A DNA stretch of 64,000 nucleotides, taken from NCBI RefSeq assembly GCF_003751225.1, contig NZ_RJKE01000001.1, positions 6,014,001 to 6,078,000 on the forward strand. Reading direction: 5' to 3'. The notes under the pieces are model-generated. The model was not told the DNA's origin. It saw only the letters and a list, made by a program, of their open reading frames with translations, and searched no databases. A program made the translations under genes and the position numbers. Positions 8,499 through 50,006 of this stretch are shown piece by piece. The stretch is from Actinocorallia herbida. GTDB lineage: Bacteria > Actinomycetota > Actinomycetes > Streptosporangiales > Streptosporangiaceae. Position 1 is the first letter of the stretch. The number at the start of each line of letters is the position of its first letter.

Positions 8499-10025
8499 TC
8501 ATCCCTTGGTGGGGCGTCGGAGTCTCTCGGGGCGAAGAATGAAGGTGCGGCCGTCCGTCTCCCGCGTGGTGGTGATCGCCTGTGGCTTTCGCCCCTTCTC
8601 CACCCAGTTCACCATGGCGTCCAACATGCGCTCCGGCACATCGGAGGGGCCGACGCCGCCGAAGCAGTGCATCAAACCGGGGACAAGGTAGGCGCGATAC
8701 CAGCGGTCCAGGCCGGGCGTGGCCGACTCGTAGGCCGCAGCTCCACGCTGGATCGCCTCGCTCCACTCGTAGGGGATCGCCGGGTCGTCGACGCCGAAGT
8801 AGGTGAGGAGCTTGCCTCCGGAGTCGCGAAACGCCGTGAAGTCGTAGACGCCGTCAGAGCTGCCGTCCGCCGTGCCGGACTGAATGGCACGGTGCACCGC
8901 AGGATCGTCCAGGTCGAGGTCTGCGACACCGGTGCCGAGGGTGGCACGGAACGACGACTCTGCCACCAGGAAGCCGTACGGAGAGGTGAACGACGCCACG
9001 TTCCACGGCGGCGGTACGGCTCCGACGAACCACGCCGACCAGGTCGCCGGGCGGGTCACGCTGTAGCCAGGCACGCGCACGGGCTCGTCGAGGCCGTGGT
9101 AGGTCCAGTCGGTGGTCACGAGCCGGAAGGTCGCGATCTGGGCAGCGGTGAATCCTGCCTCGGAGAGCAGTTCGTCGCGAACCGCGATACCTCGGCCATC
9201 AGCGATGATCCCGTCGATCTCCCCGTCGTCGCCATCGTGCGCCGCAAGGATGGCGCTCTGCGCGGCCTGGAGCTTCTGAGGCGGAATCCAGCCGTCCGGG
9301 TTCTGGATGATGCGCTTCAGAATCCGTGCCCAGCTAAGAGCGGAGGCCGCGGACAAAGGCACTGTCGATCCAACGATCACTCCGTCGAAGCGGCGCCCAT
9401 CGTGAACCCTCAGGTTGTTGATGCTGCCCATGCCGCCGCCGGAACAGCCCGAGACGTACCGGTGCAGCGTACGAGTCCCATAGAAGGATCGGGTCAGGCC
9501 CTGGGTCACCGCGGCGACGGTCTCAAGCGCCCGGTTGTCCCAGTTGAGCTTCTGGACGGGGTCGGCCTGCCAGCTGAAGTCGAGGGAGTGCAGCGGAGAC
9601 GTGCCCTTGTCCATCGAGGTGACGGCAAAGCCCCGTCCCAAGAGTTCGTTGAAGTCGTAGTCCAGAGGTGCTGCGGCGTTCCCTTCGTCCTGACCGGTCC
9701 ACGGGACTATCCCGCCGCCCGAGCCGCCCTGCGCGAAGAAGAAGTGCCGTTTGGCGAAGCGGTCGGGCAGCGCCAAACGGAACTTGATATCCCAGGGTCC
9801 TGGCGAGGCCACGGTGGCGTGCCCGTCGACGAGGCAGTGGTCGGGGCCAGCCGTTCGGACGGCGGCGGTGATGGCCGTCCCGGCAGGGGCGAGCCTCTGG
9901 ACCGCCGCCACCGTGCAGGCGCGGATCGCCGCCTCGGCCGGTCCCGCCGTAGTGAGGGCGGCCGAGGCCAAGACGGCCGATGCCAGAAGGGAGGAGGTCC
10001 TTTTGAGGGGTCGTAGTGGGCGCAT
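8499..10025 (-). CDS. Secreted tannase/feruloyl esterase family alpha/beta hydrolase
   Basis: Protein of 508 aa starting at ATG 10025 (GAGGAG 5 nt upstream). Residues 1-32 form a signal peptide with a basic start (RPLRPLKR), a hydrophobic core (LLASAVLASAAL) and an AEA-A cleavage site, so the enzyme is exported. Tannase-family signatures are VSGCSGGG (Cys194-Ser195, the nucleophile with its disulfide Cys), the acid in YFGVDDP, and LMHCFGG with the catalytic His and partner Cys. Together these form the CS-D-HC arrangement known for feruloyl esterases and tannases. It probably releases an aromatic or other acid from an ester outside the cell, providing substrate for the intracellular CoA pathway (inference). 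Confidence 0.9.
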   Translation of the reverse strand: MRPLRPLKRTSSLLASAVLASAALTTAGPAEAAIRACTVAAVQRLAPAGTAITAAVRTAGPDHCLVDGHATVASPGPWDIKFRLALPDRFAKRHFFFAQGGSGGGIVPWTGQDEGNAAAPLDYDFNELLGRGFAVTSMDKGTSPLHSLDFSWQADPVQKLNWDNRALETVAAVTQGLTRSFYGTRTLHRYVSGCSGGGMGSINNLRVHDGRRFDGVIVGSTVPLSAASALSWARILKRIIQNPDGWIPPQKLQAAQSAILAAHDGDDGEIDGIIADGRGIAVRDELLSEAGFTAAQIATFRLVTTDWTYHGLDEPVRVPGYSVTRPATWSAWFVGAVPPPWNVASFTSPYGFLVAESSFRATLGTGVADLDLDDPAVHRAIQSGTADGSSDGVYDFTAFRDSGGKLLTYFGVDDPAIPYEWSEAIQRGAAAYESATPGLDRWYRAYLVPGLMHCFGGVGPSDVPERMLDAMVNWVEKGRKPQAITTTRETDGRTFILRPERLRRPTKG

Positions 10026-20023: not shown

Positions 20024-20332
20024 TCAGTCGGAGGCAGGCAGGGCCTTGGCCCCCTGGAGCGCCAGCGGCGCGCCGTTCACGGCGAGCGTGCCGGTGCCCG
20101 CCTTGGTGCAGAGCAGCTCGATGCCGAGCGCTTCGTCGGCGTAGCGCTTGCCGAGGGCCGAGCCGTCCTGCTGGGCGGGGTCGGCTGCGGCGCCCTCGGG
20201 GGCGGAGGCCGCAGGGTCGTGCATGGCGACCCCGGCACAGGTCACGGTGACCTCTTCGCCGGGCGCCCGGACGACGATCAGCTTGGTGGTGTCGACGGCG
20301 CTGACGAGCTGCTGACCGGCCCGAAGCTTCAT
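20024..20332 (-). CDS. Small protein of unknown function preceding a CoA ligase
   Basis: Protein of 102 aa with a good ribosome site (AAGGAG 7 nt before ATG 20332). It begins with a beta-rich segment (MKLRAGQQLVSAVDTTKLIVVRAP), has a short Ala/Pro/Asp-rich linker around residues 38-55, and then GKRYADEALGIELLCTKAGTGTL. It contains two Cys (CAGVAM, LLCTKAG). No signal peptide or membrane span is present. I do not recognise a characterised family, but genes like this are found near CoA ligases and MaoC genes in actinobacteria (recollection, not searched). Cotranscription with the ligase at 19988 is likely. Confidence 0.65.
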   Translation of the reverse strand: MKLRAGQQLVSAVDTTKLIVVRAPGEEVTVTCAGVAMHDPAASAPEGAAADPAQQDGSALGKRYADEALGIELLCTKAGTGTLAVNGAPLALQGAKALPASD

Positions 20333-37932: not shown

Positions 37933-40245
37933 ATGAGCTCCCACCAACGATCCATCCGATTCAAGATCTTCACGCTGCTGCTGATCCCCCTGTCTTCGCT
38001 CGTGGTGGTCTGGGTCTTCGCCGCGGTCACCAGCGTCGGCGACGGGCTGAACTACTTCCGTTCCAAGGCGGAGTCGACGACCCTCATCACGCCGACGAGC
38101 GCGGCGCTGTTCATGCTCGAGACCGAGCGGCAGGTCTCGGTCCAGTACGTCGCCGCGAACCGCGCGGCCGGCGGCACGGGACTCGCCCCCCAGAGGGCGA
38201 AGACCGACGCCACCGTCACGGCGCTGAACGCGGCGATCGCGTCGGACGACTTCCAGGGCTGGGCCCGCACTGAACTCAAGACCGTCGCCGCCGAGACCGG
38301 CACCGGGCTCCAGAAGCTGGCCGAGCTCCGCGCGAAGGTGGACCGGGGCGTCGACTGGCGGACGGTGATGGGCGACTACGACGCCCTCATCGAGCAGGTC
38401 GACGGGCTCGTCGAGCAGCTGCCCAACAAGGTGACCGCCGAGGTCTACCAGGCGGGCATCGACGGGACCACGTTCGCCCGCGTCCGGAGCATGATCACCC
38501 ATGAGACGACGCTGCTGTCCGGGGCCATGGCGAAGGGCCGGCCGACCGCCGCCGACCGGAGGCTCTTCGCCGCGATCGTGGCCCACCAGCGGGCGACGGC
38601 GCAGGAGCTCCTGCCGCGGCTGCCCGTGGAGAGCCGGTCCGCCGCGGAGCAGGTCCTCGCCACGCCCGCGGCCGTCCGGCTGAAGCGCATGGAGGACCAG
38701 ATCATCGCCGGCACCCGCCCGGCGGTGTCGCTGGCCGAATGGCAGGAGACCTCCGCCCAGGTCCAGGTCGAGCACCAGCGGGTCCTCCTGCAGATGTCCA
38801 CCGGCATCACGACGCTCACCGACGAGGTGACCTCCGACATCATTCTGCGGCTGGTCCTCACCGGCGTGCTCGGACTCGCGACCGTCTTCGGCGGCGGCTT
38901 CCTGTCGATCCGGCTGGGCAGGCGCCTGGCCGCGGAGCTGACGTCGCTGCGCGGCTCGGTCCTCACGCTCTCCGACGAGAGGCTGCCCGACGTCGTCGAC
39001 CGGCTCAGCCGCAACGAGGACGTCGACATCGAGAGCGAGTCCATCGCGCCCCCTCCCAGCACGACCACCGAGGTCGGGCAGGTCGGCCAGGCCTTCGCCA
39101 AGGTCCAGCGCACCGCGCTCGAAGCGGCCACCGGCCAGGCGGAGCTACGGCGGCGCATCGCGCTCATCTTCCTGAACCTCGCGCGGCGCAATCAGTCCCT
39201 CGTCCGCAGGCAGCTGAAGCTGCTGGAGGAGCTGCAGCGCAAGGTGAGCGCCCCGGAGACCCTGGACGGCCTGTACAAGGTCGACCATCTCACCACCCGC
39301 ATGAGGCGGCACGCCGAGGGCCTCATCATCCTGGCTGGCGGCGCGCCCGGCCGGTCCTGGCGCAAGCCCATCGCGATCGTCGACCTGGTCCGCGCCGCGG
39401 TGTCGGAGATCGAGGACTACAAGCGGGTCAAGGTCGAGCAGATGCCGCCGATCTCGATCGACGGCGGCGCCGTAGCCGACGTCGTCCACCTGGTCGCCGA
39501 ACTCGCGGAGAACGCCACCGCGTTCTCGCCCCCGCCCTCCCGCGTCCTCGTGCGCGGCGACGTCGTCGGCCACGGCTATGTGCTGGAGGTCGAGGACCGC
39601 GGCCTCGGCATGGAACCCGAACTCCTCGCCGAGATCAACGAACGGCTCAGCAAGCCGCCCACCTTCGACCTCGCCGACGCCGACCGCATCGGCCTGTTCG
39701 TCGTCGGCCGCCTCGCGGCCCAGCACGGCATCCAGGTCTCGCTCCGCAAGTCCGCCTACGGGGGGACGACCGCGGTGGTCCTCCTCCCCCACTCCCTCAT
39801 CGCGAAGGACTCCGGCGAGCCCGACACCCCGCCGCCCCCCGCCGCCGACGAGCGCCTGGAAAGGACATCGGTGCCCGAACCCGTCGACGAGCCCCGCCGG
39901 GACAGAGACGCGCGCTGGAAGGCCGCGGAGCCCGCCCCGGTGCCCGCGCCCGCCGCTCCGCCCGTGCCTCCCGCTCTGCAGGCCGGGCAGGCGCCCGCGG
40001 CCACCGCGGGCACCTACGGCGGGCTCCCCCGCCGCAACCGCCAGGCCAGCCTCAACCCTCAACTCCGCGACGAGCCCGCGGCGGTCGAGGAGCGCGAGAC
40101 GCCCGTCGTGGAGCGCTCGCCCGAGGAGGTGCGGTCCCGGATGTCGTCGATCCAGCGCGGCTGGGCGCGCGGGCGCACGGCCCCCGTGCAGCGCGGAGGC
40201 CGCACCGACGCGAACCGGAACACCGAGCCCGGAAGAGAAGGGTGA
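37933..40245 (+). CDS. cvnA: Sensor histidine kinase-like protein with nitrate/nitrite-type sensing domain (CvnA type)
   Basis: Protein of 770 aa. An N-terminal span (residues about 10-32, FKIFTLLLIPLSSLVVVWVFAAV) precedes a helical extracytoplasmic NIT-like domain. A second span (about 297-318, LVLTGVLGLATVFGGGFL) leads into a HAMP-like stretch, a dimerisation region (NLARRNQSLVRRQLKLLEEL) and a HATPase_c domain with the N-box ELAENATAFSPP and the G-box DRGLGM. The H-box is atypical, as in other conservon kinases. The last ~170 residues are Pro-rich and disordered. It heads a four-gene conservon, a GPCR-like signalling set known from Streptomyces. Confidence 0.9.
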   Translation: MSSHQRSIRFKIFTLLLIPLSSLVVVWVFAAVTSVGDGLNYFRSKAESTTLITPTSAALFMLETERQVSVQYVAANRAAGGTGLAPQRAKTDATVTALNAAIASDDFQGWARTELKTVAAETGTGLQKLAELRAKVDRGVDWRTVMGDYDALIEQVDGLVEQLPNKVTAEVYQAGIDGTTFARVRSMITHETTLLSGAMAKGRPTAADRRLFAAIVAHQRATAQELLPRLPVESRSAAEQVLATPAAVRLKRMEDQIIAGTRPAVSLAEWQETSAQVQVEHQRVLLQMSTGITTLTDEVTSDIILRLVLTGVLGLATVFGGGFLSIRLGRRLAAELTSLRGSVLTLSDERLPDVVDRLSRNEDVDIESESIAPPPSTTTEVGQVGQAFAKVQRTALEAATGQAELRRRIALIFLNLARRNQSLVRRQLKLLEELQRKVSAPETLDGLYKVDHLTTRMRRHAEGLIILAGGAPGRSWRKPIAIVDLVRAAVSEIEDYKRVKVEQMPPISIDGGAVADVVHLVAELAENATAFSPPPSRVLVRGDVVGHGYVLEVEDRGLGMEPELLAEINERLSKPPTFDLADADRIGLFVVGRLAAQHGIQVSLRKSAYGGTTAVVLLPHSLIAKDSGEPDTPPPPAADERLERTSVPEPVDEPRRDRDARWKAAEPAPVPAPAAPPVPPALQAGQAPAATAGTYGGLPRRNRQASLNPQLRDEPAAVEERETPVVERSPEEVRSRMSSIQRGWARGRTAPVQRGGRTDANRNTEPGREG

Positions 40246-40249
40246 CGGC

Positions 40250-40636
40250 GTGGAAACGCTGAACTGGCTGCTGAACGACCTGACCCAGCGGGTCGACGAG
40301 ATCAGAAGCGCCCTGGTGCTGTCCAGCGACGGCCTCCCGCTGGCACGGTCGGCCGACCTGAGCGCGGAGAGCGCGGAACGCCTCTCGGCGACGGCGTCGG
40401 CCTTCCAGAGCCTGGCGCGCGGCGTGGGCCAGGACTACGGCGGCGGCGCGGTGCTCCAGACGGTCATCGAGATGGAGTCGGCGTTCTTCTTCGTCACGGC
40501 CGCGGGCAGGGGCGCGTGCTTCGCCGTCCTCGCCGACGCCGACGCGGACGTCGGCCTCGTCGCGTTCGAGATGACGCTCATGGTCAAGCGCGTCGGCCCG
40601 CACCTCTCGGTGAACCCCCGGCTGAACCCCCGCTGA
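40250..40636 (+). CDS. cvnB: Roadblock/LC7 domain protein (CvnB type)
   Basis: Protein of 128 aa; GTG 40250 lies 4 bases after the kinase stop, with AAGG 8 nt upstream. It has the roadblock fold pattern (IRSALVLSSDGLPLARSADLS, then AERLSATASAFQSLARGVGQD). In conservons it is thought to act as a GTPase-modulating partner of the CvnD protein at the membrane. Length and position match other conservons. Confidence 0.92.
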   Translation: METLNWLLNDLTQRVDEIRSALVLSSDGLPLARSADLSAESAERLSATASAFQSLARGVGQDYGGGAVLQTVIEMESAFFFVTAAGRGACFAVLADADADVGLVAFEMTLMVKRVGPHLSVNPRLNPR

Positions 40637-40655
40637 GCGAAGGAGGAGTCGCATT

Positions 40656-41027
40656 ATGGATCCACCCGAGGAGCACTGGCTCGAAGAGGATTCCGGCCCT
40701 ATCGTCCGGCCGTTCGCGGTCGTCCAGGGACGCATCCCGTCCACCGGCGACCTGTTCGACCTCATCACGGTCGTGCGCGCCACCGGTCTGGCGGGCGATC
40801 CCTCGCTGCTGGAGCCGGAGCACATGGCGATCCTGCGGAGGTGCGCGCGGCCGATCCCGGTGGTCGACCTGTCCTACGAGCTGAACCTCCCGCTGGGCGT
40901 GATGCGCGTTCTGCTCGGCGATCTCCGAACTCAGGGCCTGATCTCCACGGGCGCTCCGCCGTCCCGGCACGGCAGGCCCGGCAACGACCTACTCAGGGAG
41001 GTGATCAGTGGCCTACGGCGTCTCTGA
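40656..41027 (+). CDS. cvnC: DUF742 protein (CvnC type)
   Basis: Protein of 123 aa with AAGGAGGAG upstream of ATG 40656. It shows the DUF742 pattern: IVRPFAVVQGRI, then a winged-helix-like stretch with HMAILRRCARPIPVVDLSYELNLPLGV and LLGDLRTQGLI. It is the third component of the conservon. Its 3' end overlaps the GTPase gene by 20 bases. Confidence 0.92.
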   Translation: MDPPEEHWLEEDSGPIVRPFAVVQGRIPSTGDLFDLITVVRATGLAGDPSLLEPEHMAILRRCARPIPVVDLSYELNLPLGVMRVLLGDLRTQGLISTGAPPSRHGRPGNDLLREVISGLRRL

Positions 41028-41571
41028 GCCCGACGACCCGGTCACGCTCAAGATCGTGGTCGCGGGCGGCTTCGGCGTCGGCAAGACGACCCTCGTCGGC
41101 GCGGTCAGCGAGATCCGTCCGCTGCGCACCGAAGAGGACCTGTCCGACCTCGGCACCGCCGTCGACGACACCTCGGGCGTCGAGTCCAAGACGACCACCA
41201 CGGTCGCCCTGGACTTCGGCAGGATCCGGATCCGCGAAGGTCTGCTCCTCTACCTTTTCGGCACCCCGGGCCAGTCCCGGTTCTGGTTCATGTGGGACGA
41301 GATCGCCATCGGGGCCGTCGGCGCGGTCGTCCTCGCCGACACCCGGCGGCTCACCGACTGCTTCTCCTCGATCGACTACTTCGAGAAGCGCGGCCTGCCG
41401 TTCATCGTCGCCGTCAACTGCTTCGACGGCGCCGAGCGCTACGACCCCGACACCATCGCCATCGCCCTGGACCTCGACCCGGGCACGCCGGTCGTCCTCT
41501 GCGACGTCCGCAACCGCGAATCCGTCAAGGAGGTCCTGATCAAGGTGATCGAACACTCGATGACCCGTTAG
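41008..41571 (+). CDS. cvnD: Small GTP/ATP-binding protein (CvnD type)
   Basis: Protein of 187 aa; GTG 41008 is preceded by GGGAGGTGAT inside the DUF742 gene. It has the P-loop GGFGVGKTTL, a G3-like FGTPGQSRF, and NCFD near the G4 position, as in the conserved ATP/GTP-binding proteins of actinobacterial conservons. It probably acts as the switch protein coupled to the kinase-like sensor. A 15-bp terminator hairpin follows 19 bases after its stop. Confidence 0.92.
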   Translation: MAYGVSEPDDPVTLKIVVAGGFGVGKTTLVGAVSEIRPLRTEEDLSDLGTAVDDTSGVESKTTTTVALDFGRIRIREGLLLYLFGTPGQSRFWFMWDEIAIGAVGAVVLADTRRLTDCFSSIDYFEKRGLPFIVAVNCFDGAERYDPDTIAIALDLDPGTPVVLCDVRNRESVKEVLIKVIEHSMTR

Positions 41572-41646: not shown

Positions 41647-42696
41647 TCAGCGCCGACGGCGCGGCCCGGTGCCGTCGAGGATGCGTTCGGCCTCGCGGAG
41701 GAGGCCGGGGAGGGCGGGGATCATCCGGCGGATGGCGGGGTGCATGGTCTCGGCGCGGCGGCCGCGCTTGATGAGGAGGGCGGTGGCGCCGGCCTCCTTG
41801 TAATAGGTGAGGGCGGTGAACCAGTCGAGGTCGGGGGGCGTGCCGAGGCCCGCGACGGTCAGGTAGGCGTCGAGGAGTTCGCCGCCGGTGGGCATGCCCG
41901 TCGGGTCGCCGGACGGGGCGGCGGGGTGGCGGCCCTCGTCGGTGAAGAAGGTGAACCAGGTCAGGTCGACACGGGGGTCGCCGACCGACCAGATCTCCCA
42001 GTCGATGACGGCCTCGACCCGGTCGCCCCGGCACAGGGTGTTGCCCAGCCGGTAGTCCCCGTGGTTGACGACCGGCGGGAGCGGCGCGGGCATCGTCGCG
42101 TGCAGGGCGCGGGCGCACCGCTCGTAGTCGCCTTGCAGGTCCGCGGGCACCGTGGCGAAGGCCTTGGTCCACCGGTCTATCTCCTCGGCGAGGGAGACCA
42201 CGGGCTCGTCCGCCAGGCCGACGTCCGCGGGGACGACCCGGTGCAGTGCGGCGAGGACCCCGGCGGCGTCCAGCGCGCGGGCCCGCACCGTCGGACGGCC
42301 CGCCGGATCGCGATCGTCCTCCAAGACAGGCTCCACGCACTCGCCCGGGACGAGGGACATCGCGTGGAAGGGCGGGATCTCCGGCGGTTCCCCGGCGTCC
42401 TCGAACAGGACCCGCGGAACCCGGACCCCCGGACGGCCGTGCAGCGCCCACATCACCCGCGACTGGCGGAGGACGTCCCGGTTCCGCACGGGGGCGAGGC
42501 CGGGCGGCGCCACCTTCAGGACCACCGACCGCTCCTGCGCGGGCCCGCCCTCGACGGTCGCGATGAACGTGAGGCTGGAGGCTCCCCCGGTCAGCGGTCG
42601 GACCTCCGAGATCCGCGCTCCCGGAGCCCATGCCTGCGCGGCGCGGGTCGCCCTGGCCCGCAACGAGTCGATCAGTTCCGCCGTGCTAGCGGACAT
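41647..42696 (-). CDS. APH-type phosphotransferase, ACAD10/11-like kinase partner
   Basis: Protein of 349 aa with an aminoglycoside-phosphotransferase fold: SVVLKVAP (ATP-binding Lys), the catalytic loop VVNHGDYRLGNTLC (H-G-D-x4-N), and VIDWEIWSVGDP with the metal-binding Asp. Kinases of this group are fused to or encoded beside ACAD11-type dehydrogenases. In human ACAD10/11 and in Pseudomonas LvaA/LvaC they phosphorylate the hydroxyl of 4-hydroxyacyl-CoA before its removal. Here the dehydrogenase gene lies just upstream, so the same chemistry is likely. Antibiotic resistance is an unlikely role. Its ATG shares a base with the stop of an SDR stump (TGATG). Confidence 0.85.
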   Translation of the reverse strand: MSASTAELIDSLRARATRAAQAWAPGARISEVRPLTGGASSLTFIATVEGGPAQERSVVLKVAPPGLAPVRNRDVLRQSRVMWALHGRPGVRVPRVLFEDAGEPPEIPPFHAMSLVPGECVEPVLEDDRDPAGRPTVRARALDAAGVLAALHRVVPADVGLADEPVVSLAEEIDRWTKAFATVPADLQGDYERCARALHATMPAPLPPVVNHGDYRLGNTLCRGDRVEAVIDWEIWSVGDPRVDLTWFTFFTDEGRHPAAPSGDPTGMPTGGELLDAYLTVAGLGTPPDLDWFTALTYYKEAGATALLIKRGRRAETMHPAIRRMIPALPGLLREAERILDGTGPRRRR

Positions 42697-42824
42697 CAGT
42701 ACTGCCCTCCGTCCACGTGCAGGGGCGCGCCGGTGGTGACGGGCTCCGGGCTCACGAGGTAGAGCGCGGTGGTGATGATCTCCTCGGGCTCTCCGGGCCG
42801 GCCCAGCGCGTCGCGGGTCCTCAC
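42696..42824 (-). pseudogene. 3' stump of an SDR gene between dehydrogenase and kinase
   Basis: Only the last 42 residues of a short-chain dehydrogenase remain: GRPGEPEEIITTALYLV through GAPLHVDGGQY, the normal SDR C-terminus. The Rossmann fold and active site are gone; upstream sequence belongs to the acyl-CoA dehydrogenase. A GTG at 42824 overlaps that gene's stop (GTGA), and the stump's own stop overlaps the kinase start, so it may still be translated as a coupling peptide. It looks like the scar of a deletion that fused two neighbouring genes' borders. Confidence 0.75.
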
Positions 42825-44122
42825 CGGCCGTGCTCCTTCAGGACGGCGGCGTAGCGCTCCCGTGCCGCCGCGCGCTTGGGCGGGAGGTGCTCTGAGGGGA
42901 ACAGGCCGGGCGCGGGGGTGTACTCGCGCAGCTTCTGCTTGGCGATCGTCGTCTTGTGCACCTCGGTGGGCCCGTCGGCGAGGGCGAGCGAAGGGACGCT
43001 CATCCACATCGCGGCGAGCGGGGTCTCGTGCGTGGTGCCCAGCGAGCCGTGCAGGTGGACGGCTCTGCGGACGATGTCGTGGTAGACCTTCGCCATCGCG
43101 ACCTTGCACATCGCGATCTGGGTCCGGGCCGCCCCGTGCGGGAGGTTGTCGATGGTCCAGGCGGTCTGGAGGACGAGCAGCCGGTACTGCTCCAGCTCGA
43201 TCCACGAGTCGGCGATGAGCTCCTGGACGGCCTGCTTGTCGGCGAGCCGCTCCCCCTGGGTGCGCCGGGAGAGGGCGCGCTCGCACATCATGTCGAAGGC
43301 CCGGCGGCACTGGCCGACGGTGCGCATGGCGTGGTGGACCCGGCCGCCGCCGAGCCTGGCCTGCGCCACGGCGAACCCCTGGCCGGGGCCGCCGAGCAGC
43401 GCGTCGGTGGGCACCCGGACGGCGTCGTAGCGGATGTAGCCGTGGATACCCTCGTCGAGCTCGTCCCGCTCGGCCATCGTCGCGACGTTGCGCTTGATCT
43501 CGATGCCGGGGGTGTCGGCCGGGACGACGAACATCGACATCCGCTCGTGCGGCCTGGCCTCGGGATCGGTCACCGCCATGACGATGAGGAACTCCGCGTA
43601 CCGGGCGTTCGAGGTGAACCACTTCTCGCCGTCGATCACCCAGCCGTCGCCGTCACGGCGGGCCCGGCAGGTGAACTCCTTCGGGTCGGCTCCCGCGTGC
43701 GGCTCCGTCATCGAGTAGGCCGAGACGATGTCGCCGTCGAGCAGTGGCTGGAGGTACCGGCGCTTCTGCTCGTCGGTGCCGAACATCGCGAGGATCTCGG
43801 CGTTGCCCGTGTCGGGCGCGGCGGTGCCGAAGACCGTCGGCGCCCAGTAGGAGCGGCCGAGGATCTCGTTCATGAGCGCGAGCCTGAGCTGGCCGTAGCC
43901 CTTTCCGCCCAGCTCGGGACCGAGGTGGCAGGCCCAGAGACCGCGCTCCTTCACCTGCTGCTGGAGCGGGCGCAGGATCGCCCGCGCGGCCTCGTCGCGC
44001 ACGTCGTACGGGGCGCCTCCGGCCGGGAAGAGCAGGTCGAGGGGCTCGACCTCCTCCCGGACGAAGGCCGCCATCCAGTCGAGTTCCTTCTGGAACTCAG
44101 GGTCGGTACTGAAATCCCACAT
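42821..44122 (-). CDS. Acyl-CoA dehydrogenase of the ACAD10/11 type
   Basis: Protein of 433 aa from ATG 44122 (GAGGAG upstream). The C-terminal half follows ACAD11 closely, with GGGRVHHAMRTVGQCRRAFDMMCERA, AVQELIADSWIELEQYRLLVLQTAW, HLHGSLGTTHETPLAAMW and LADGPTEVHKTTIAKQKLREY. The N-terminal half has GGKGYGQLRLALMNEILGRS and SMTEPHAGADPKEF. Together with the APH-type kinase encoded downstream it makes the two-protein equivalent of ACAD11, proposed to process 4-phosphohydroxyacyl-CoA. The extended frame to 44248 is antisense to a MarR gene and is rejected. Confidence 0.9.
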   Translation of the reverse strand: MWDFSTDPEFQKELDWMAAFVREEVEPLDLLFPAGGAPYDVRDEAARAILRPLQQQVKERGLWACHLGPELGGKGYGQLRLALMNEILGRSYWAPTVFGTAAPDTGNAEILAMFGTDEQKRRYLQPLLDGDIVSAYSMTEPHAGADPKEFTCRARRDGDGWVIDGEKWFTSNARYAEFLIVMAVTDPEARPHERMSMFVVPADTPGIEIKRNVATMAERDELDEGIHGYIRYDAVRVPTDALLGGPGQGFAVAQARLGGGRVHHAMRTVGQCRRAFDMMCERALSRRTQGERLADKQAVQELIADSWIELEQYRLLVLQTAWTIDNLPHGAARTQIAMCKVAMAKVYHDIVRRAVHLHGSLGTTHETPLAAMWMSVPSLALADGPTEVHKTTIAKQKLREYTPAPGLFPSEHLPPKRAAARERYAAVLKEHGR

Positions 44123-44139: not shown

Positions 44140-44592
44140 TCACCGGGGGGTGGTGCCGGTCTCCAGTCGGGTCCTGATCTCGCGGAGCGTCGCGGTGGCC
44201 GCGGCCAGGGCGGCCGGATCGAGCCCGGCGGTCACCTCCGCCGCCCACGTCCGGCTGACGGCGTCGGCCGCCGCGTAGGCCGCACGCCCGCGCTCCGTCG
44301 GCACGAGCAAGCGGGCCCTCTTGTGATCCGGGTTGTCGACGGCCTCGACCATGCCGATCTCGACCAACGCGTCCGCGAGCCGCTGCACCGCCTGCCGGGA
44401 GTGCCCGAGACTCCGCGCGATCTGCGGAACCGTCGGCGGCCTGTCCCCCCGCACGACGGCGGTCAGCACCAGCAGCTGCGCCCCGGTCAGCCCTTCCCCC
44501 GCCCCGAAGTCGGCGGTCGCGGTCAGCAACCGGGCCTGTGTGCGAAGCACTTCGTCAATGAGATCAGCGATCGGATGCGCATCGGACAACAT
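44140..44592 (-). CDS. MarR family transcriptional regulator (leaderless)
   Basis: Protein of 150 aa. ATG 44592 is chosen because a promoter lies immediately before it and upstream frames would cross the operator. It has the MarR winged helix: GAGEGLTGAQLLVLTAVVRGDRPPTVPQIARSLGHSRQAVQRLADALVEIGMVEA, with the wing KRARLLVPTERGR. It ends 17 bases before the acyl-CoA dehydrogenase start and is on the same strand, so read-through into the dehydrogenase/kinase pair is likely, with repression of the whole set through the operator at its promoter (inference). Confidence 0.87.
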   Translation of the reverse strand: MLSDAHPIADLIDEVLRTQARLLTATADFGAGEGLTGAQLLVLTAVVRGDRPPTVPQIARSLGHSRQAVQRLADALVEIGMVEAVDNPDHKRARLLVPTERGRAAYAAADAVSRTWAAEVTAGLDPAALAAATATLREIRTRLETGTTPR

Positions 44593-44598
44593 GCCAAC

Positions 44599-44627
44599 AC
44601 ATTGTCGAATCGACAACATATTGTCAA
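44599..44627 (-). promoter_or_regulatory. Leaderless promoter with embedded MarR operator
   Basis: Reading the minus strand: -35 TTGACA (44627-44622), 17-base spacer, -10-like CAATGT (44604-44599), then 6 bases to the ATG at 44592. The spacer contains a perfect 15-bp palindrome, TTGTCGA-T-TCGACAA (44602-44616). This explains autoregulation by occlusion. Confidence 0.65.
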
Positions 44628-44728
44628 GATCGGGCTGCACGGCCGCCCCCGAAACAATGCCGATGGCCGGAGCACGAGTGCCCCGGCCATCGGACGGAGG
44701 GTGAGGCGGATCCAGACGCTGATCAGGC

Positions 44729-45589
44729 TCAGAAGACCGGCTGCTGCGGTCGGTTCTTGACGTAGCTGCCAGCGTCGACGCGCATCTGCAGGCCGGTCAC
44801 GAACCGGGACTCGTCCGAGACGAGGAAGAGCACCGCGGCGGCGATGTCCTCGGGCTCGACGAACCCGACGGGCATCGCGTTCATGGCGGGGAAGGCGAGC
44901 AGCGCGTCGTCCCTGGTCGGGTGTGCCAGATCGGGCCGGAACTGCCGGTACATGACATCACTGTTGAGCATCGCGGTGTTGGTGTTCGTGGGATGCACCG
45001 CGTTCGCCCGGATCCCGCGCGGGGCCAGGGTGAGGGCCAGGTCGTGGACGAACGAGGCGACGGCGCGCTTGGCCCAGGAGTAGCCGAGGCCGCCGAAGCC
45101 CATCGCCGGGTTGTCGGTGCCGCCGGGCAGCAGCCCGGCGACCGAGCCCGTGGCGACGATCGACGCACCGTCCGGCAGGTGGGGCAGCGCCGCCTGCACG
45201 GCGTGGAACACGCCGTTGAAGTCCACGGCGACGGCGTCGAGGAACGCCTGCGGGTCCTGGGTGCCGAGCGGGCAGATCCCCGCCTGCGCGACGACCGCGT
45301 CGAGCCGTCCCAGCTCGGCGACGCCCTGGGCGACGGCGTCCCTCAGCGCGCCGGGGTCGCGGACGTCGGCCCTCAGGCCGACCATGCGGCGGCCGAGCTT
45401 CTCCACCAGGCGGACGGTCTCCGCCAGATCCTCCGGTGTGGCGAGCGCGTAGTCGTTGGTGGGGATGTCGGCGCACAGGTCGACCCCGATGATGTCGGCG
45501 CCCTCCTGCGCGAGCCGCAGCGCGTGTGCCCGACCCTGGCCCCGCGCCGCCCCGGTGATGAAGACGACCTTGTCCTGCACTCTGCCCAT
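44729..45589 (-). CDS. Mycofactocin-coupled SDR family oxidoreductase
   Basis: Protein of 286 aa; ATG 45589 with GAAAGGAAC upstream. The N-terminal GAARGQGRAHALRLAQEGADI and the GVDLCADI/ATPEDLAET pattern are diagnostic of mycofactocin-coupled SDRs, with the insertion after the second strand that buries NAD. Active-site residues: Ser in ATGSVAG, Tyr/Lys in YSWAKRAV. It would oxidise an alcohol to an aldehyde or ketone, handing electrons to mycofactocin. It is the last gene of an operon whose preceding gene is an aldehyde dehydrogenase, which suggests alcohol to aldehyde to acid. Confidence 0.92.
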   Translation of the reverse strand: MGRVQDKVVFITGAARGQGRAHALRLAQEGADIIGVDLCADIPTNDYALATPEDLAETVRLVEKLGRRMVGLRADVRDPGALRDAVAQGVAELGRLDAVVAQAGICPLGTQDPQAFLDAVAVDFNGVFHAVQAALPHLPDGASIVATGSVAGLLPGGTDNPAMGFGGLGYSWAKRAVASFVHDLALTLAPRGIRANAVHPTNTNTAMLNSDVMYRQFRPDLAHPTRDDALLAFPAMNAMPVGFVEPEDIAAAVLFLVSDESRFVTGLQMRVDAGSYVKNRPQQPVF

Positions 45590-48353: not shown

Positions 48354-50006
48354 TCATCGGGCACCGCGCAAGAGCAGCGCGCCGGAGGGGACGCCGCCGC
48401 CGGCGGTGACGACGGCGACGCGGGCTCCGTCGACCTGGCGGCCTTCGGCCTCGCCGCGTAGCTGGAGCATGGCCTCACGGACGAAGCCGTAGCCGTGCAG
48501 CCGCCCGGCCGAGAGCTGGCCGCCGTGGGTGTTGAGCGGGAGACGGCCGTCCAAGGCGATGCCGCGGCCCTCGTCGATGAAGTCGCGGGCCTCGCCGAAG
48601 CCGCAGAAGCCGAGCGCCTCGAGCCAGGACAGGGCGTTGAAGGTGAACCCGTCGTAGAGCTCGGCGACGTCGACGTCGGCGGGCCGCAGCGAGGTGCGGC
48701 TCCACAGGTGGGCGGACGGCCCCAGGGACTGGGGCAGGTGGGTCAGGGTGTCCTGGTCCCAGCTCAGCCGCTCCATGATCTGGGTGCCGACGGCCTCGAC
48801 AAGGACCGGAGGGTTGGGCCGGTCCGGGACGGTCTCGACCGCCGAGACGATCACAGCTATCGCCCCGTCAACGGGGACGTCGCAGTCGTAGAGGCCGAAC
48901 GGGGTGGAGATCATCCGTGCCCCGAGGTAGTCGTCCATCGTCAGCGGGTCACGGTAGACGGCCTCGGGATTGCGCGCGGCGTTGGCGCGGGCGTTCAGCG
49001 CGATGTGGCCCAGCGTCTCCCGGTCGCCGCCGTAGCGGTGGAAGTAGTGCGATGCCTGGATCGCGATCCAGTTCGCGGCGGAGGCCGCCCCGAAGGGAAG
49101 CCGCCACTCCATCATGCCGCTCGCACGGCCGCCGCCCGCATACCAGCGCCCCGAGCGCAGGAGGTCGGAGTGGGAGGATTCCCAGACCGTCCGGAAGCAC
49201 AGGACGTGCCTGCACAGCCCTGACGCGACCGCCAGCATCGCCGAGGTGATCGAGCCGATCTGGCCCGGGGTATCGGCGCCTCCGTTCACCCAGGTCGGCC
49301 GGAGCTGGAGGGCCTCTTCCAGGGCCATCACCCCGCCCTCGGACATGCCTCCCGGCGCGGCGCCGGGGTAGGTGGCCAGTCCGTCGATCTCCTCCAGCGT
49401 CAGCCCGGCGTCCTCGACGGCCGCCATGCACGCGTCGACCGTCAGGGACAGCGGATCGACCATGAGCCGCCTGCCGACGGCGGACTGGCCGACACCGGTG
49501 AGGGCGACCCTGTCCTCGAACTTGCGCGGGCTCGCCATGGGCCGCAGGGCCGCGGCGTAAGCGCGCGGTTCCGGGATCGGGCCGTCCCCGAGCGCGGCCT
49601 GCGCTCCGTCGTCGGGCTCGAACAGGGGGAGGTGGACCTCACCCGCCTTCTCGAAGATCACCTTGACCCGCAGGCCGACGTGCACGTCCTCCGGCGCGCA
49701 GTTCACGATGTTGGTCGTGAGCCGTGCCCCGTCGTCCTCGGCCAACGCGACGACCGCCACCACGTAGGGGGGCGGGAGATCCGGAAGCCACTGCTGGTGG
49801 TTAACGGTGAACCCGGCGATGACGCCCTTGCCCGACACGGGAGTCATCGCGACGTTCGCGCTCCGGCAGGACCGGCAGCGCGGCAGTGGAGGGTGCATGT
49901 AGGTTCCACAGTCGGTGCAGCGGGCTACGCGCAGTTCGCCGTCCGCGCCCGCCGCCCAGAAGTCCGCGCTCGCCAGGGTCGGCTGCGGAAGCGGTCTGGT
50001 ACTCAT
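48354..50006 (-). CDS. Fused DUF35 Zn-ribbon/OB-fold and thiolase-fold protein
   Basis: Protein of 550 aa. Residues 1-150 form a DUF35 unit with zinc ligands Cys30, Cys33, Cys44 and Cys47 (CTDCG, CRSC) and an OB-fold. From about residue 160 (FEDRVALTGVGQSAVGRRL) a complete thiolase-fold domain follows, with ELYDGFTFNALSWLEALGFC and PLNTHGGQLSAGRLHGYG. The nucleophile loop reads NGGADTPGQIG and has no Cys, as in Ltp2-type aldolases. The separate genes at 11118 and 11552 show the same two parts unfused. The fusion fixes a 1:1 ratio and supports the idea that the two domains work as one aldolase (inference). Confidence 0.9.
   Translation of the reverse strand: MSTRPLPQPTLASADFWAAGADGELRVARCTDCGTYMHPPLPRCRSCRSANVAMTPVSGKGVIAGFTVNHQQWLPDLPPPYVVAVVALAEDDGARLTTNIVNCAPEDVHVGLRVKVIFEKAGEVHLPLFEPDDGAQAALGDGPIPEPRAYAAALRPMASPRKFEDRVALTGVGQSAVGRRLMVDPLSLTVDACMAAVEDAGLTLEEIDGLATYPGAAPGGMSEGGVMALEEALQLRPTWVNGGADTPGQIGSITSAMLAVASGLCRHVLCFRTVWESSHSDLLRSGRWYAGGGRASGMMEWRLPFGAASAANWIAIQASHYFHRYGGDRETLGHIALNARANAARNPEAVYRDPLTMDDYLGARMISTPFGLYDCDVPVDGAIAVIVSAVETVPDRPNPPVLVEAVGTQIMERLSWDQDTLTHLPQSLGPSAHLWSRTSLRPADVDVAELYDGFTFNALSWLEALGFCGFGEARDFIDEGRGIALDGRLPLNTHGGQLSAGRLHGYGFVREAMLQLRGEAEGRQVDGARVAVVTAGGGVPSGALLLRGAR

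Follow-up and report, generated by a model that had tools for sequence, protein, structure and literature searches.

Does a small-molecule kinase encoded beside an acyl-CoA dehydrogenase in Actinocorallia herbida form, with its neighbor, a system for removing a hydroxyl group from an acyl chain, and if so, how near does it stand to the systems already described? The two genes lie between positions 41,647 and 44,122 of a stretch of 64,000 nucleotides (assembly GCF_003751225.1, contig NZ_RJKE01000001.1, positions 6,014,001 to 6,078,000), which was analysed as a whole and is called the window here. A preliminary description of this DNA had read them as a two-gene counterpart of ACAD10/ACAD11; that the kinase and the 433-residue dehydrogenase adjoin was confirmed, in coordinates as well as in the motifs HGDYRLGN, IDWE, RVHHAMRTVG and ADGPTEVH. 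Judging from residues and gene linkage, we consider it probable (roughly 70%) that the pair is a two-enzyme γ-dehydroxylation system in which the kinase phosphorylates the hydroxyl and the acyl-CoA dehydrogenase-fold protein (ACAD) eliminates the phosphate. Phosphorylation followed by elimination appears to be the likeliest chemistry because the ACAD has the residues for it and the kinase belongs to a group tied to such ACADs. The locus consists of four parts:

44140..44640, minus strand: MarR-type regulator, probable start of the operon (Pfam MarR_2, 2.5e-13, on 44140-44625).
42821..44122, minus strand: ACAD, 433 aa, carrying the signature of enzymes that eliminate phosphate from 4-phosphoacyl-CoA.
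42696..42824, minus strand: remnant of a short-chain dehydrogenase/reductase (SDR), an in-frame mini-open reading frame of 42 codons, recognized by Pfam, tblastn and a reading of the junction.
41647..42696, minus strand: APH-fold small-molecule kinase, 349 aa, of a group that we call type B, assigned by Pfam, motifs, tree and model.

Read 5' to 3' along the transcript, the order on the minus strand is thus MarR-type regulator, ACAD, SDR remnant and APH-type kinase. The stop codon of the MarR-type gene lies 17 bases ahead of the ACAD start, a spacing from which the gene is probably co-transcribed with the ACAD as the first of the operon, and seven of the 40 other loci compared have a MarR homologue 5' of the ACAD (L031, L032, L033, L057, L064, L066 and L067). 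The GTG of the remnant overlaps the ACAD stop (TGA), and its own TGA overlaps the ATG of the kinase. The related loci were drawn from the best 80 of 578 relatives.

By Pfam the dehydrogenase matches Acyl-CoA_dh_1 (7.7e-36), the middle domain (7.8e-22) and the N domain (6.6e-12), and its closest solved structures by sequence are 4hr3 (1.3e-83) and ACAD11 (7.9e-82), which are also the top Foldseek matches of its AlphaFold model (pLDDT 89.7). For mouse ACAD11, modelling and substitutions are reported in PMC12440821 to show R626, H634 and R637 holding the 4-phosphate, with turnover disrupted most by substitution of these three, R631 helping to orient the substrate, and D753 as the base. Onto these residues (R626, R631, H634, R637 and D753) align R256, R261, H264, R267 and D383 of the window ACAD, which accordingly has the phosphate-site Arg/His/Arg trio of one ACAD11 helix (R256, H264, R267) and, within xDGPxEVH, Asp rather than Glu as the predicted catalytic base. 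The motif RVHHAMRTVG occupies residues 261-270 and ADGPTEVH residues 382-389, and the whole signature comprises R256, R261, H263-H264, M266, R267, D383 and P95. All of these apart from P95 (that is, R256, R261, H263, H264, M266, R267 and D383) are invariant in 26/26 aligned sequences, window included; P95 corresponds to the cavity-opening Pro of ACAD11-type enzymes named in the consulted part of PMC11342911 and is Ser in an own-genome homologue (L112). The same Arg/Arg/His/Arg and Asp recur in the close rows and in the LvaC/ACAD11-like rows of related genomes, whereas the ordinary ACADs in that alignment have neither motif, and a plain β-oxidation ACAD was ruled out by this comparison.

The resemblance to ACAD11 is not identity. 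The window ACAD has GGG for GPG, HAMR for HCMR and GPTEVH for GPDEVH, shares 42-43% identity with three aligned LvaC/ACAD11-like dehydrogenases, and in a 118-row tree falls in a 43-row clade (Shimodaira–Hasegawa-like approximate likelihood ratio test support 99) separate from the rows with RLGPG...MR/GPDEVH. These GPDEVH rows stand for the LvaC/ACAD11-like clade, ACAD11 and LvaC themselves being absent from the tree, and on this placement the window ACAD belongs to their sister clade. The 43 rows are the window, L031-L071 and L111, with three short contigs (L049, L060 and L061) kept in the counts; the tree left out duplicate places (L001 and L115-L118) and took its ordinary ACADs from four loci only. 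The structure nearest in both sequence and fold, 4hr3 from Mycobacterium abscessus, shares the signature residues but only 37% identity in the structural alignment, and its entry title assigns no function. Among the further chains, 8v3u is by its title a D220A mutant and 8v3v has Asn at D753.

The second line of evidence is gene neighborhood. Ten kinases match that of the window at E<=1e-40, in 9 of 396 genomes of the phylum, and two of the ten are the window genome's own. Nine lie within 1.5 kb of an ACAD matching at E<=1e-120, the two genes being in tandem, divergent or convergent; outside the window's genome, seven of the eight neighboring ACADs carry both motifs, R....R.HH.MR and DGPTEVH, in full, and so do the ACADs of both own-genome kinases. 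The tenth kinase (in genome G112) lies 64 bp from a variant ACAD that has RLGPGRMHYAMR and shows no match to the xDGPxEVH pattern, and an SDR comes after this ACAD; in all eight cases outside the window's genome the stretch read contains an SDR match. By gene neighborhood, type-B kinases track signature ACADs. The same is seen from the side of the dehydrogenase: in the 43-row clade a type-B kinase lies within 6 kb in 30 rows, all actinobacterial, and an ACAD11-type kinase in 11, namely ten proteobacterial rows and a Nocardioides (L068, 4 kb away), with no kinase found within 6 kb in the other two (L048 and L049, the latter a 6-kb contig). The same ACAD-SDR pair is thus served by kinases of two clades. 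Plasmids carry such sets too: the order is kinase-ACAD-SDR on pGD02.2.1 of Rhodococcus rhodochrous and on a plasmid of Rhodococcus qingshengii J1-2, where the ACAD is a HYAMR variant, and the kinase is convergent with SDR and ACAD on a plasmid of Streptomyces sp. NBC_00080.

One could suppose that an ordinary ACAD has come by chance to lie beside an unrelated kinase, for instance an antibiotic-inactivating phosphotransferase, since this genome is rich in both families (54 APH-type matches, many of which are short, and 29 ACADs among the candidates scored). We find this very hard to credit in view of the catalytic Asp in place of Glu together with Arg/His/Arg in the ACAD, the linkage in 10/10 cases (one with a variant ACAD), and the scores of antibiotic kinase models, which are far under their cut-offs. 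The best NCBIfam model, the APH(3') equivalog, reached 25.5 bits against a cut-off of 205, and an antibiotic phosphotransferase was rejected; action on an antibiotic, which the preliminary description had named as an outcome that would speak against it, is unsupported.

A separate observation concerns the second phosphate-site His, which is replaced by Tyr (RLGPGRMHYAMR) in the ACADs of two loci, L187 7733-11911 (the J1-2 plasmid) and L192 4830-7692 (G112). In both of these sightings the order is a type-B-like kinase, an LvaC-like ACAD and then an SDR.

The kinase itself is less easily placed. It matches Pfam APH (1.3e-30), with HGDYRLGN at residues 212-219 and IDWE at residues 231-234, and the core catalytic residues of HGDxxxxN and DWE are present (D214, N219 and D232-E234), as is K61. 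Its AlphaFold model (pLDDT 94.1) has as its best structural matches 3dxp (Z 28.4), the 25-hydroxysteroid kinase, or 25-HSK (27.4), and Rv3168 (26.3); ACAD11 chains are not among the best 50 structural rows, which has no bearing on the fold. We compared it in a broad alignment (the window kinase with 47 of the 71 rows listed, including subsets of 25 type-B and 16 ACAD11-type, or type-A, rows) and in a 70-row tree built from this alignment, 17 more kinases (some of them duplicating genes of the alignment) and five stretches from the PDB. The tree has no outgroup and is unrooted, and the sister order of its three clades is therefore not given. ACAD11, 3dxp, 9o56 and the type-A rows form a 30-row clade (95/96); 25-HSK and Rv3168 pair (99/95) within a clade of five rows (100/99) that leaves the window kinase outside; and the window kinase falls in a 32-row type-B clade (100/100) with a stem of 1.75. 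A type-B profile scores 9o56 (74.2 bits), 25-HSK (74.1), 3dxp (68.6), Rv3168 (67.8) and ACAD11 (64.7) about equally, while a type-A profile scores ACAD11 at 235.7 bits.

The residues divide along the same lines. The alpha-C Glu of the ACAD11 kinase is Gln78 in the window kinase, and this Gln is invariant in 25/25 aligned type-B rows and present in 8/8 further ones, whereas the alpha-C Glu and the Arg176 equivalent are invariant in 16/16 type-A rows. The Arg beside the alpha-C position is kept in type B (R77, 25/25); in the ACAD11-type kinase of L071, outside the 16-row alignment, Lys replaces the Arg ahead of the alpha-C Glu. The published R86 was mapped onto this position by its description as lying beside the alpha-C Glu, the counted residue being 84, so that the numbers disagree. 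Given the separate clade, Gln78, Glu171 at the place of Arg176 and the equal profile scores, the kinase is by ancestry no half of ACAD11, although its mode of action may be similar. The preliminary description, which had called the two proteins the two halves of ACAD11, therefore holds for the phosphate and catalytic residues of the ACAD and not for ancestry, the kinase lying outside the ACAD11 clade and the ACAD in its separate 43-row clade; its proposal that the set phosphorylates and removes the hydroxyl survives as the likeliest chemistry suggested by residues and linkage, without ACAD11 ancestry for the kinase. As a point of reference, LvaA is reported to have 29% identity to the ACAD10/11 kinases in the part of PMC11342911 consulted. 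Set beside mammalian ACAD11/ACAD10 as wholes, the window shares the ACAD fold, conserves R626, R631, H634, R637, D753 and the cavity Pro, conserves the catalytic D220 and N225 of the kinase, and pairs the kinase with an ACAD; it differs in consisting of two separate proteins, in HAMR for HCMR, and in a kinase of another clade that lacks the alpha-C Glu and R176. A narrow literature search found no paper describing type-B kinases, nor, judged by titles and the opening of abstracts, any on the gene trio.

Alternatively, the kinase might phosphorylate a free alcohol ahead of CoA attachment, or with no such attachment, and the ACAD might act only once CoA has been ligated, or in a different step; the alcohol could be, for example, the tertiary or ring hydroxyl that a terpenoid or steroid-like acid carries. 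Here 25-HSK of Sterolibacterium denitrificans (PDB 9fsg, by its title) is the natural comparison: it has the APH fold (Z 27.4, root mean square deviation 3.7, 330 aligned) and, like Rv3168 and the window kinase, Gln at the alpha-C position, where ACAD11, 3dxp and 9o56 have Glu; the type-B profile gives it and Rv3168 (74.1 and 67.8 bits) more than ACAD11 (64.7); and it is likewise paired with a separate phosphate-eliminating lyase (PMC8449060, in the part consulted), so that both it and, as proposed, the window pair would carry out a two-step ATP-dependent dehydration. The window kinase, moreover, lacks the Arg176 with which ACAD11 is modelled to contact CoA, and because Glu171 stands in its place and the kinase lies outside the ACAD11 clade, the enzyme may act on something other than a CoA thioester. 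However, 25-HSK belongs to a separate clade and acts on a free sterol alcohol, whereas the window kinase is outside the 25-HSK/Rv3168 clade and is paired with an ACAD-type lyase; chains of the ACAD11 clade score as high with the type-B profile (9o56 at 74.2 and 3dxp at 68.6); the best structural match of the kinase, as modelled, is 3dxp; the Arg beside the alpha-C position is retained (R77, 25/25); and the partner ACAD, with its acyl-CoA fold and its 4-phosphoacyl-CoA signature, would demand a thioester at the elimination. On balance, we regard phosphorylation of a free alcohol as unlikely, although it deserves more weight than any other competing explanation raised here.

Several observations weigh against a γ-dehydroxylation system of the ACAD11 kind. 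The modelled CoA contact of ACAD11, Arg176 (PMC12440821, in the part consulted), is Glu171 in the window kinase, and the kinase lies outside the ACAD11 kinase clade in a tree that does not contain LvaA itself. Linkage is not always close or to the canonical signature: on a plasmid of Rhodococcus sp. BH4 a type-B kinase lies some 50 kb from a signature ACAD, and in G112 and R. qingshengii J1-2 a type-B-like kinase lies beside an ACAD without the second His (HYAMR). In the window ACAD, Ala replaces the Cys of the exact HCMR motif (HAMR), a Cys for which the available portion of PMC12440821 mentions no substitution test. Finally, a Pfam scan of the window found no acyl-CoA ligase directly adjoining the pair.

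The preliminary description had counted two genes, which is incomplete: the tail of a third lies between them and had gone unnoticed. In Actinomadura physcomitrii (L031), the nearest relative among the matches listed, ACAD, SDR and kinase follow one another in that order and overlap in the same manner, and 40/43 clade members have a homologue of the L031 SDR after the ACAD (at about 1.06 kb in L065 and L067, and running into the contig end in L060), the exceptions being the window, L054 and L071. What remains in the window is not an intact SDR: it corresponds to residues 206-247 of the relatives' 247-aa protein, with 66.7% identity over 42 aa by tblastn (7.2e-12) and a match to positions 191-234 of 236 of Pfam adh_short_C2 (3.6e-6), and it is joined in frame to a GTG at the position of the apparent SDR start in the own-genome paralogue L111. 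The unit was thus formerly MarR-ACAD-SDR-kinase and lost its SDR by an in-frame deletion that kept the overlaps, at a junction known from the assembly alone, in which an error is possible. In Nocardia miyunensis (L054, 7302-7507) the SDR residues before about 180 are gone and there is a frameshift, with the kinase upstream; this is a second, independent loss beside an intact ACAD and type-B kinase. No remnant was detected in L071. That the window deletion is in frame may reflect a need to translate the downstream kinase, which, with one case of each kind, is only suggestive.

Such a loss raises the possibility that the whole unit is decaying and that its function has passed to an intact paralogue. 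The SDR is after all truncated, an intact ACAD-SDR with a divergent kinase exists 0.56 Mb away in the same genome (G000:C1:5496063-5499256), and Nocardia miyunensis also has a broken SDR. However, neither the kinase nor the ACAD is shortened or lacks a catalytic residue, the deletion preserves the frame and both start-stop overlaps, and the ratios of nonsynonymous to synonymous substitution rates against L031 are low for both (ACAD 0.108, kinase 0.191; the SDR tail has 0.309 over 39 aligned codons); as judged from the codons, kinase and ACAD are under purifying selection. The loss of the SDR also seems tolerable in N. miyunensis without a close paralogue, since the best SDR listed there is located elsewhere and is only 63% identical to the missing one, whereas in the window's genome an intact SDR shares 75% identity with the L031 protein; on these grounds we rejected, as a general rule, the idea that a close paralogue supplies the missing SDR. 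We thus consider decay of the unit quite improbable.

Other copies of the system are not lacking. Among the best 11 of 29 own-genome ACAD matches scored, eight (the window's included) carry the full signature and six of these eight have an APH kinase within about 1.5 kb; three further ACAD matches in the same stretches lack the signature. Because the signature is shared by so many, the prediction of the preliminary description that the strain degrades a γ-hydroxy acid does not depend on this locus and is not tied to it.

If the pair is a γ-dehydroxylation system, its reactions may be pictured as follows. The kinase would transfer the γ-phosphate of ATP to the 4-hydroxyl either of an acyl-CoA or, ahead of CoA activation, of the acid from which it derives. 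In the ACAD, Asp383 would abstract the α-proton and FAD would carry electrons transiently, and Arg256, His264 and Arg267 would bind the phosphate that is then expelled; the resulting 2-enoyl-CoA could enter β-oxidation. The overall conversion is established for ACAD10/11, whose precise mechanism the authors call unclear in the part of PMC12440821 consulted. The precedent for a kinase-ACAD-SDR set is LvaA, LvaC and LvaD of the Pseudomonas putida levulinate operon, in which the SDR, LvaD, reduces levulinyl-CoA to 4-hydroxyvaleryl-CoA ahead of LvaA and LvaC (PMC9399607 and PMC6692424, in the parts consulted). The window's relatives, likened to this operon by its description, unite the same three kinds of gene, and their SDR would occupy the place of LvaD; the window differs in its deleted SDR, in having a MarR-type gene in front rather than LvaR, and in having no adjoining acyl-CoA ligase, and its four parts leave no space for an extra gene such as LvaB, for which the genome was not searched. 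If the SDR was a ketoreductase like LvaD, the window copy would start at the hydroxy (or lactone) level or make use of an SDR encoded at another place in the genome. In L031 the SDR is intact and matches the generic subfamily PRK07231 (228.2 against a cut-off of 215), and among the models examined for the window and for this SDR none above its cut-off names a pathway or a substrate.

The genes around the locus suggest a catabolic island for hydroxylated or cyclic acids: CoA-transferases, a thiolase with an OB domain, an aldehyde dehydrogenase, a cytochrome P450, amidohydrolases and a luciferase-type oxidoreductase. Large Streptomyces and Rhodococcus plasmids have similar gene sets. Immediately 5' of the MarR gene, 44729-45580 (minus strand) encodes an SDR of the mycofactocin-coupled type (319.6 against a curated cut-off of 300), and 48354-50006 (minus strand) encodes a ChsH2-type OB-fold/zinc-ribbon fused to a thiolase-like domain, a domain set that we take to be that of side-chain retro-aldolases. 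Also within the island, 8499-9911 (minus strand) encodes a member of the tannase/feruloyl esterase family (PF07519, 7e-46). At 20024-20332 (minus strand) there is a conserved 102-aa orphan with no Pfam or NCBIfam match, present in 11/41 regions compared (window included); it shares 52-56% identity with "hypothetical proteins" encoded next to acyl-CoA ligases on plasmids of Rhodococcus and Streptomyces, as well as with one in L034. A four-gene run at 37933-41571 (plus strand), comprising a large sensor-like protein, two small proteins and a GTPase with GGFGVGKTT, presumably resembles an actinobacterial conservon.

Activation of a hydroxyl by phosphate and its elimination have been tied to named enzymes only recently, in the levulinate operon, in ACAD10/11 and in 25-HSK. 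Tentatively, and with more doubt than attaches to the chemistry itself, one could envision type B as a third, undescribed family of hydroxyl-removal kinases beside ACAD11/LvaA and 25-HSK, exchanged with ACAD11-type kinases next to the same ACAD-SDR pair and serving bulky or not-yet-CoA-activated γ-hydroxy acids in a catabolic island that large plasmids carry as well. If the window module follows the established route with its kinase of another branch, at least two kinase lineages have been recruited to this chemistry around a single family of ACAD-type lyases. The kinase, and not the lyase, may then set the substrate range, and the module would provide a sequence handle on the substrates of uncharacterised actinobacterial catabolic islands.

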